NCBI GenBank assembly: GCA_018825665.1
Contig: JAHJEG010000034.1
Coordinates: 1-53,046 of the forward strand
Direction of reading: 5' to 3'
Length of the DNA: 53,046 nt
From: a bacterium
GTDB taxonomy: Bacteria > Campylobacterota > Campylobacteria > Campylobacterales > Sulfurimonadaceae
Made by a program: the position numbers and the translations under genes. The notes under the pieces were generated by a model that searched no databases, had not been told where the DNA came from, and worked only from the letters and a program-made list of their open reading frames with translations. Below are positions 49,787-52,928 of this stretch, piece after piece (within the stretch, counting starts at the first letter, position 1; every line of letters starts with the position of its first letter).

Positions 49787-49889
49787 ATATATGCTTCATT
49801 TAAAAGAACTTTGTTTTATAAATTTTTAAATATATCCCAAGAAAAGTTTTTTATGATAAAATAACTAAAAATATTAAATTAGAGGCAAA

Positions 49890-50555
49890 ATGTCTAGTAA
49901 TAAGAACAATGAATGGACGACTGACATCATATTGACGGACATCATTAATTTTTCCAAGCTCGAAGCAAAACAGCAGTTGGAAATAATAAATTATTTAACA
50001 AAAAGCTATTCAAAGATGATAGAGAAGATGCTTCTTAACTCAAATATGCCGTTGAACAAGTTTATACTTGGATTTATCTCTACGGGTGACGGTTTTTTTT
50101 GTATTTTAAATCCCAGGCTCAAAGGATACGGAATCATTCTAGCGCTTAGTTTTAACCATTTTTCCGAATATATAGCTAAAAAGTATCCTTATTTCGAGGG
50201 TGTCAGAGTCGCAGTTCATACGGGAAAGCTCTATGAGTTTACAGATATACTCGGAAACAGAAACTACATAGGAGACGGACTCAACAACTGCTCTAGATAT
50301 TTAGAATTCAAAAACTATACGATTTCAACAGTTATAGCATCGGATGTAGCCTTTGAGAGTTTAAAAAAATTTTTGAGTATCCACGAAGACTTTGAGCTGC
50401 TTCTGTCGCAAAGAGAATTTAAATACTCCGCACCTCATGTATTTAAAGACAAACACGGCAATGAAAAAAAAGGGATTATGGTCTGGCTGCGAAAAGCGGG
50501 TATTATCAATCCGCCAAATACAAACTTCAATTCAATTATTCAAAGGGAGATCTAG
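49890..50555 (+). CDS. Class III nucleotide-cyclase-like protein
   Basis: 221 aa, a stand-alone cyclase homology domain. The first metal Asp is Asp17 (ILTDIINFS), the second Asp67 (ISTGDGFF); VRVAVHTGKLY and GDGLNNCSRYLE follow with the Asn132/Arg136 pair that stabilises the transition state. The Lys that selects adenine in adenylate cyclases is replaced (Ile at about 64), so the nucleotide is unclear. No membrane or sensor segment. AGAGGC precedes the ATG. Its stop directly abuts the next ATG. Structure is recognisable, catalytic role is inference. Confidence 0.75.
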   Translation: MSSNKNNEWTTDIILTDIINFSKLEAKQQLEIINYLTKSYSKMIEKMLLNSNMPLNKFILGFISTGDGFFCILNPRLKGYGIILALSFNHFSEYIAKKYPYFEGVRVAVHTGKLYEFTDILGNRNYIGDGLNNCSRYLEFKNYTISTVIASDVAFESLKKFLSIHEDFELLLSQREFKYSAPHVFKDKHGNEKKGIMVWLRKAGIINPPNTNFNSIIQREI

Positions 50556-51245
50556 ATGAGATTAAGTATAGACGAATATTCAAAAAAATTCAAAATGTCA
50601 AAAGAGATGATCCATTCCAAATTAAAAGCAAAAAAACTAAACTACATCATAGAAAACGGCACGACCTATATTATCGTGAGCGACTCCGCATCAGAAGATG
50701 ATAACCAAACAAAGCCCGAAGAAAAAACAGCGCAGATGGTGCCTCAGGCCTTGAGCAGACCCAAGACAACCGTAGCGACAGTGTTGGCATTGTACCAAAG
50801 AGAAAACAGACAATTAAAAGATAAGATCATCCAGCTAGAAGCCAAAATAGATAAATTAATCGATGATAAAGAACAGATGCTTCGATACGAGAGAGATAAA
50901 ATAGAGGAGATTTACAGCGCAAAGGATGAGCAGTTAAAAAATATTTTGGAGCTTGTCAACAAAAAATTTATTTTGGAACAAAAGCCTCAGACTATCCATG
51001 AGGTTGAAACTTTCAATACCCAAAAAATACCAACGGCTTCGGAGGAGGATGAGAGCGGCAATCAGGAAAAAGTCGTGGAACTAAGGGATTATCTAAAAAC
51101 CCTTGATTTAAAATCCCACCAAAGAAAAATAATAAAAAGAAGGTTTTATGCAGCGTACGACAATGACGTAAGAATAATGCAGCAAAACGGTAAACTTTAT
51201 TTAGATTTTTCTAAATATGACTATAGCGATTTACTTTCCTACTAA
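50556..51245 (+). CDS. Putative HTH and coiled-coil protein
   Basis: 229 aa. The first 45 residues (RLSIDEYSKKFKMSKEMIHSKLKAKKLNYIIENGTTYIIV) look like the small winged HTH used by MerR/excisionase-type proteins. A linker and long coiled coil (about 85-150) follow. A basic C-terminal segment (SHQRKIIKRRFYAAYDNDVRI) ends it. Family not known to me. GGGAGA precedes the ATG. It is coupled to the cyclase-like gene (0 bases) and is 9 bases before the FapA gene. Confidence 0.65.
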   Translation: MRLSIDEYSKKFKMSKEMIHSKLKAKKLNYIIENGTTYIIVSDSASEDDNQTKPEEKTAQMVPQALSRPKTTVATVLALYQRENRQLKDKIIQLEAKIDKLIDDKEQMLRYERDKIEEIYSAKDEQLKNILELVNKKFILEQKPQTIHEVETFNTQKIPTASEEDESGNQEKVVELRDYLKTLDLKSHQRKIIKRRFYAAYDNDVRIMQQNGKLYLDFSKYDYSDLLSY

Positions 51246-51254
51246 GGCAAAATT

Positions 51255-52928
51255 ATGAGTGAAATATTGCAAACAAGCGTAAAAACCAAAAACATCAAAG
51301 AAACTATGCAGACATTTGCTTCAGATAATTTCACTCCGCTTGCCGAGTGTGATTTCACCATAGATGAAGTAAGTATATATATAAGAAGCAGTGCGAATAC
51401 CGATTTCACTGTTTTTCAAGGTGATATCAAAGAAGAGTTTGACACAGATGAAAAGCTTTTAAACAGGCATGTGGAGTTTCATCAGGTTTACAGCATTACG
51501 GCCACAAAAAGAAAAACCTGCGATATAAAACTAAGTTATAGTATAGACTTCGGGGAATACTCCACAAATCCAAAAATAATAATAAATCCGGGTTCGCACA
51601 TACCTTATAAGCTTTTCAAACCCAAAGAGCTATTCCAGATTCTGCTCCAAGAGATCAATAAGATCAAAGCAGAAAATGGCATTTTGATACATATATTTGA
51701 TGCATCAATGATAAAAAACCTGAAGATATTGACAAAATACATCTATGCGGGGAGTTTCACAAAAAAAGTAAGAATCCCTCTTTTTGAGGGGATTGAACCT
51801 GAAATATCCAGAGCGAGTAAACTCATCATGTGGTTTGAGCACAAAGATGCACACCAGCAGGTTATAGAGGTTGAAGAGGGGGAGGTTCTTGTTGAATTCA
51901 AAAAACCGATTTTCGGTAAAAACGGATTCAATGCTTTTGGCTTGCAGATTGATAACAATTATGGAACCAATCTGAATGACCTTCAGGCAGATATTGATTA
52001 CGAGAGCATAAAGATTGAAGAGAACTCTGACAAGAAACTTTATAAAAGCAAACGAAAAGGTTATGTAAATTTTGACGGCACATATCTGACCGTCAACAAC
52101 AAAGTAAAGATGTCCAAGCTCTCACGGGTTCAGGATTCTGTCGCAAAAGAACAGGATAACAACATTGAAGTTCACATCTCTCAAAACGATACGACAAAAG
52201 ACAGTATAGGAGAAGGTGTTGAACTTACATCAGAAACGATACTTGTGAATGGGCATATAGGAGCAAACAGTATCTTAGAAGCAGTAAATCTACAGGTTGA
52301 AGGGGCCACACACAAGGATTCAACCCAATTTGCAAGATTTGCCAAGATAAACAGACATAAGGGTACATTGCGTTGTCATGAGGCTAAGATTGCTCTTTTA
52401 GAAGGGGGTGAAGTACACGCCACAAATGTACATATCGAAGCTTCTCTGGGCGGTGTTGTCCGTGCTCAGAATGTGACGATAGGACACGTCAAGAGCAACC
52501 TAAAAGTATATGCCTCCCATTCCATAACACTCAGACTTGTCAGCGGAGAAGATAATCTTTTTAAAATCAACTATAAAGAGGTACCCATCCTAAACAGTAA
52601 AATAGATTTGATCAATGAAGATATACAAGAATTAAAATACTCCCTAGAAGAAGCCAAAAGACATAATGTATCCCAAGTGCCTCTTATCAAGGAAAAAATA
52701 AAACGCTTCCAAAATGAAAAAAAATCTATAATTCATTCTACTGAAGGTGCAAAAGTCACCATTGAAAAACCGCTTCACGGACTTAATAAGATCATCTTCA
52801 CAATTGATGATGATCATGAACTGATTTTTAAAACCGATGCAACAACTTACGATCCTTTTTATATAGAGATGCAAGAGGATAAAATCATCCTGCATCCCGT
52901 CAATACGTCTCTGCCTCTTCACTCATAA
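51255..52928 (+). CDS. DUF342/FapA-family polymer-like protein
   Basis: 557 aa. The N-terminal half holds a variable domain; the middle (about 210-470, with GKNGFNAFG, KRKGYVNFDG, and a turn-repeating series ETILVNGHIGANSILEAVNLQV... EGGEVHATNVHIEASLGGVVRAQNVTIG) is the right-handed beta-helix of FapA/DUF342. It ends in a coiled coil (NEDIQELKYSLEEAK). Members include Vibrio FapA, linked to flagellar position and sugar signalling. AAGG precedes the ATG. It ends the operon with the cyclase-like gene. Confidence 0.85.
   Translation: MSEILQTSVKTKNIKETMQTFASDNFTPLAECDFTIDEVSIYIRSSANTDFTVFQGDIKEEFDTDEKLLNRHVEFHQVYSITATKRKTCDIKLSYSIDFGEYSTNPKIIINPGSHIPYKLFKPKELFQILLQEINKIKAENGILIHIFDASMIKNLKILTKYIYAGSFTKKVRIPLFEGIEPEISRASKLIMWFEHKDAHQQVIEVEEGEVLVEFKKPIFGKNGFNAFGLQIDNNYGTNLNDLQADIDYESIKIEENSDKKLYKSKRKGYVNFDGTYLTVNNKVKMSKLSRVQDSVAKEQDNNIEVHISQNDTTKDSIGEGVELTSETILVNGHIGANSILEAVNLQVEGATHKDSTQFARFAKINRHKGTLRCHEAKIALLEGGEVHATNVHIEASLGGVVRAQNVTIGHVKSNLKVYASHSITLRLVSGEDNLFKINYKEVPILNSKIDLINEDIQELKYSLEEAKRHNVSQVPLIKEKIKRFQNEKKSIIHSTEGAKVTIEKPLHGLNKIIFTIDDDHELIFKTDATTYDPFYIEMQEDKIILHPVNTSLPLHS

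Follow-up and report, generated by a model that had tools for sequence, protein, structure and literature searches.

Three adjacent genes of a Sulfurimonas-type member of the Campylobacterota, here termed A, B, and C, are read by us, tentatively and as something possible rather than probable, as an old, vertically inherited operon in which A represents an uncharacterized cyclase subfamily that acts in motility or polarity. This reading draws on the predicted fold of A and the conservation of its catalytic residues, on a gene order that is maintained among relatives, and on the occurrence of A and C in flagellated genomes only, among those sampled.

Gene Organization and Promoter

The window (i.e., the whole stretch of DNA analyzed, 53,046 nucleotides) is an entire contig (G000:C45) of the Sulfurimonas-type genome. 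Gene A (49890..50555, + strand; 221 aa), encoding a predicted stand-alone protein of class III nucleotidyl-cyclase fold, is followed after 0 bases by gene B (50556..51245, + strand; 229 aa), whose product is modeled as a Xis/BldC/MerR-like winged HTH with a long helix and a small C-terminal domain, and B is followed after 9 bases by gene C (51255..52928, + strand; 557 aa), which by sequence encodes a short FapA/DUF342-type paralog. The contig ends 118 bases past C. The first-pass annotation had described three genes joined by 0 and 9 bases; its ORF coordinates were exact and both gaps were reproduced. Upstream of A lies a divergent gene that, from its sequence, we take to be fructose-bisphosphate aldolase (fba). 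A putative sigma-70-type extended -10 box of the operon, TATGATAAAAT (49852..49862, + strand), was identified by recurrence of its motif at syntenic loci. Specifically, a TATGnTAAAAT box was present 5' of A, or 5' of B at loci that have lost A, in 28/33 syntenic loci as compared to 3/660 mononucleotide shuffles. At a few loci the box fell within or very near the called start, suggesting that the start calls there are wrong. In look, the promoter is sigma-70-like, unlike flagellar sigma-54/28 promoters, and A-B-C would apparently be read as an operon from this one housekeeping promoter.

Conservation and Loss of the Locus

Synteny was compared across 37 genomes of the genus and 62 further loci. 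Results showed a recurring order, fba (or pyk)-A-B-(C)-HTH-HU, where the slot extends in relatives to a gene for an HTH-like protein of 79 aa and to an HU-like gene. Since dozens of genomes have A-B or A-B-C at this position, the arrangement is beyond chance; moreover, B came next after A in nearly every family locus examined, even where the upstream gene was a different one. A check of gene-order conservation had been proposed at the outset, with the lack of a conserved neighborhood in related genomes to count against the annotation, and the neighborhood proved to be conserved. In some species (L118:10452-12356; also L112 and L119), a membrane protein of 634-642 aa with a glycoside-hydrolase-like N-terminal part is encoded directly after A-B in C's place, flanked by B and the gene for the 79-aa HTH protein. 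In addition, a bin that also holds L149 contains a second, broken fba-A-B copy (L152, Faavne_M6_B10), likely a result of strain mixture or decay.

We then surveyed 151 genomes of the family. A was present in 78 (matches in G408, G442, and G383, which are long open frames of over 900 aa, were left out of this count) and short C in 56, and B was near-universal, flagella-less genomes included. The occurrence of A showed no association with that of C (28/50/28/45; p = 0.87). Genus g26, for example, has A in 37/41 genomes and short C in 0/41, and on a 33-genome tree A changes at least six times and C at least five times. Since A and C were lost independently, they are not obligate partners; an obligate A-C partnership is ruled out, and the three-part system implied by the first-pass annotation was not supported. 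Considering that the two genes are statistically independent, a direct route from A to C is not required, and since A persists without C throughout g26, C cannot be A's sole output. Decayed remnants of A were seen in two genomes (G010 and G003), a search for viral or plasmid copies found none, and mirror-tree distances gave weak correlations (r of 0.60 for A-B, 0.84 for A-C, and 0.51 for A-fba). The locus is chromosomal and is best read as vertically inherited, with repeated loss.

Predicted Fold and Active Site of A

Scans of A against Pfam, NCBIfam, and PADLOC returned no real family, the weak matches to PtuA, thioredoxin reductase, and the like being regarded as chance, and none of 18 A members had a direct Pfam match at E 1. 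Since an hmmsearch of A (A1) against PDB sequences also returned no cyclases, we turned to comparing structures to assign the fold. An AlphaFold2 model was built from 18 homologs (pLDDT 87.3, pTM 0.86), and its structure-match list was filled with class III nucleotidyl cyclases (Foldseek E 7e-9). VIA-align of the model against dozens of solved cyclases gave Z scores of 14.6-17.5 over 155-193 residues, the best (17.5 over 183 residues) coming from the comparison with guanylate/adenylate cyclases. When the A profile was aligned by hhalign with 11 genuine cyclases (PF00211) from the same order, an E of 1.3e-5 was obtained, and A's TDIINFS and IGDGLN--SR were placed on cyclase motifs. These results suggest that A has the class III nucleotidyl cyclase fold predicted by the model and that, the fold itself being known, A probably constitutes an undescribed subfamily of stand-alone class III nucleotidyl cyclases.

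A shares with PF00211 cyclases the predicted fold, the two metal Asp, the Asn/Arg pair, the HTG turn, and the IGDG-N---R segment, but it goes undetected by the Pfam model, has the Lys and Asp/Thr replaced, consists of a stand-alone domain, and is set apart by a family-specific D187-K188-H189 motif. A survey of class III proteins deals with DUF2652 (PMC4886424), and this family was ruled out as the identity of A, to which it has no match. A 339-aa class III cyclase-like protein in another genome (L023:988-2007; G015:C197) bridges A (8.5e-4) and PF00211 (over cut-off), and it also matches PycC weakly.

To describe the active site, residues were counted over 74 homologs of A from several phyla, including Magnetococcales, Verrucomicrobium, Desulfobacterales, and a planctomycete. 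D17, D67, R136, and K188 were kept in 74/74 homologs and N132 in 73/74, and D187-K188-H189 was nearly invariant as a whole. Profile alignment with PF00211 cyclases equates D17 with a metal Asp and N132/R136 with the Asn/Arg pair; D67 (in STGDG) was paired by eye with the Asp of the cyclase Lys-x-x-Gly-Asp, via the shared Gly-Asp, and HHalign inserts a short gap around A's GDG, where the second metal Asp lies. The canonical base-selecting Lys and Asp/Thr were absent from A across the 74 aligned homologs, i.e., the usual cyclase Lys position is I63 in A (Ile or Val in all) and the adenine Asp/Thr position is N125 (Asn in all). The first-pass annotation had described just this combination, with both metal Asp and the Asn/Arg kept and the adenine-selecting Lys gone, and its cyclase-like call gains support from the predicted fold together with the conserved catalytic residues. 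Lys and Asp/Thr define the purine-specific members of class III, and non-purine members are also without them; for a class III enzyme, the residue set of A leaves catalysis possible. Judging from its place in the sequence, K188 is a candidate phosphate-contacting Lys.

Genes B and C

AlphaFold2 modeling of B gave a winged helix (residues 1-45), a 70-residue helix (73-142), and a small C-terminal domain, in agreement with the possible HTH and coiled coil noted earlier for this protein, although the fold matches are weak. The nearest solved folds were Xis, BldC, and MerR, with RacA and pSK1 Par further down (Z 3.6-6.1 over about 42-50 residues; Foldseek E 0.28). As modeled, B resembles Xis/BldC/MerR-type proteins that carry a coiled coil (the RacA and pSK1 Par architecture) in that a putative winged helix at the N-terminus leads into a long helix, but the match is short and weak, there is no sequence match, and the C-terminal domain is different. 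DUF3972 (PF13118) scored 16.4 bits on B, under its 26.2 cut-off, and was matched weakly by 7/27 relatives of B (best E 0.0012); a literature search for DUF3972 found no function. On the strength of the model, B is predicted to be a DNA-binding coiled-coil protein. A paralog of B, termed B' (L085:7488-8147; G000:C24:90493-91140), immediately follows a yajQ-like gene, and B' occurs in almost every genome of the genus.

The FapA_N family was matched by 18/18 orthologs of C (best E 6.7e-12), and the window copy scored 25.7 bits, 1.3 below Pfam's 27-bit cut-off. C is ~27% identical to a canonical long FapA (635-640 aa) that is encoded elsewhere in the same genome (G000:C25). Both results bear out the earlier assignment of C to the DUF342/FapA proteins and, at the level of sequence, C is a divergent short FapA paralog. 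Work cited in PMC6877527 and PMC8789113 describes FapA proteins as flagellar-pole proteins in Vibrio. C shares with FapA/DUF342 proteins (from Vibrio, and bb0267 of Borrelia; PMC11607428) the FapA_N region, and it is limited to flagellated genomes among those sampled; unlike them, C is shorter (557 vs. about 640 aa), forms a separate group, coexists with canonical FapA, and is missing from many flagellated species.

Association with Flagella

FlhA was found in 125/151 family genomes and in 72 of the 78 genomes with A. Since the other six, which are drafts, have flagellin-type matches, these markers place every one of the 78 genomes with A among the flagellated. Twenty genomes were apparently flagella-less (11 were checked for flagellin, which none has, and nine were called on FlhA alone, several of the genomes being incomplete), and neither A (0/20) nor short C (0/20) was present among them (Fisher's test, 1e-7 for A and 8e-5 for short C, both uncorrected for kinship). 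Since the flagella-less genomes fall mostly in g27, g91, and g95, with single cases elsewhere (e.g., G012 and G320), the real weight of this association is that of a handful of events. Both C and the long FapA have been lost in flagella-less G012, whose neighbors on the tree carry C; this genome is informative for C and not for A, which within the window's genus was already missing in the clade that holds the one flagella-less species. A was also missing from 53/131 flagellated relatives and therefore is not needed for flagellation.

Outside the family, A heads a cluster in G040, where it lies 85 bases upstream of flagellin-like, FlaG, FliD, and FliS genes; the flagellar linkage of A comes from this one genome, whose family was covered by two genomes in the search, the other without A. 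In G056, A heads a sugar-gene island and is followed by genes for a UDP-GlcNAc 2-epimerase and a methyltransferase, possibly involved in surface or flagellin glycosylation. In Magnetococcales (L157:6930-13845), an A homolog has as its neighbors several hybrid histidine kinases and a protein that combines a receiver with a class III cyclase, a setting that suggests two-component control of the A subfamily in that group.

Possible Function of the Operon

Since the locus is inherited chromosomally and A and C were seen only in flagellated species, these genes have the look of motility or cell-pole genes rather than of phage defense. A nucleotide-controlled spatial or motility system had been offered as an alternative in the first-pass annotation, and the predicted fold, the conservation of catalytic residues, and the limitation of A and C to flagellated genomes all speak for it. 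In such a system, A would most likely work as a head-to-tail homodimer, in which D17/D67 of one subunit would hold two metals and N132/R136 of the other would stabilize the transition state. A would make a cyclic nucleotide, its base pocket having lost the purine-selecting Lys, and this product, or A itself, would act through B and/or a FapA protein, perhaps with physical contact among A, B, and C. B on DNA, via its coiled coil, and a FapA protein could then carry the effect to the flagellar pole, and the outcome would be that flagella at the cell pole are adjusted in placement or in activity.

The same observations could be accommodated in other ways. A might be a non-catalytic pseudo-cyclase that binds a nucleotide or a protein, e.g., as a ligand-sensing partner of B, as would fit the loss of the usual base-recognizing Lys and Asp/Thr and an operon without a regulatory domain or a recognizable cyclic-nucleotide receptor. 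However, the near-invariance of the two Asp, the Asn, the Arg, and the candidate phosphate Lys over 74 homologs in several phyla would be unexpected if the fold of A alone were used, and we regard a pseudo-cyclase as unlikely, though by no means negligible. The near-universality of B, in flagella-less genomes too, and the independent coming and going of A and C (p = 0.87; at least six and at least five tree changes, with A in 37/41 genomes of g26 and short C in none) would be explained if the adjacency of the genes were mostly historical: B would bind DNA in a housekeeping role and have a promoter that stays in place, and the accessory genes A and C, separate from each other, would use the shared transcript and belong to no one pathway. 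This explanation is rather unlikely in our estimation, considering that B follows A in nearly every family locus examined, even behind a different upstream gene, and that restriction to flagellated genomes is common to A and C.

It appears highly improbable that the operon serves as an antiphage module, in which A would be a diverged pyrimidine cyclase of the Pycsar type and either B or C an effector that escaped recognition. A and the PycC cyclases of Pycsar (e.g., 8jsz; PMC11224242) do share a stand-alone class III fold with an altered, non-purine-type base pocket, A's fold matches include the uridylate cyclase 8jsz (Z 14.8), and distant A homologs keep the PTGDG that is also found in a PycC-like protein, one of them (in G079) lying 18 bases from a ThsB-like TIR gene. 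However, PADLOC PycC models match neither A nor four of its relatives, and neither B nor C has a Pfam or PADLOC match to a receptor or effector (TIR, transmembrane, or nuclease) with a cyclic-nucleotide-binding domain, consistent with the earlier remark that no TIR or membrane-domain effector is present at the locus. Furthermore, a patchy, mobile, defense-island distribution was not seen; instead, the locus sits in a fixed chromosomal slot and is inherited vertically across the family, with no viral or plasmid copies found, and C is a FapA paralog seen only in flagellated genomes. On these grounds the Pycsar lead of the first-pass annotation was set aside.

Within the preferred reading of A as a motility or polarity cyclase, a more specific version holds that the product of A is a cyclic nucleotide of non-purine type (such as cCMP/cUMP), which controls flagellar or polar function and is read by B or a FapA protein. 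We consider this version improbable; if true, it would mean cyclic-pyrimidine signaling for motility instead of immunity. Cyclic pyrimidines have so far been placed in phage defense. New second messengers might be sought among class III cyclases that are missed by Pfam and whose base pocket has been rebuilt, and the A subfamily, being stable, syntenic, and non-mobile in flagellated Campylobacterota and located beside a FapA paralog, would offer a clean case outside phage defense. In addition, the pattern of independent loss means that genomes lacking A, C, or both can serve as natural knock-outs when phenotypes are compared. The position of a distant A relative beside a ThsB-like TIR gene in G079 suggests that defense use, if it occurs anywhere, belongs to another branch. 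In that genome (L190:7970-9720; G079:C6), a 384-aa cyclase-like PTGDG protein, to which PycC models do not match, is encoded 18 bases downstream of the ThsB/TIR-like gene (PF08937, E 1.3e-15) and near dGTPase-like and nuclease-like genes, and the two may form a TIR plus cyclase defense pair.
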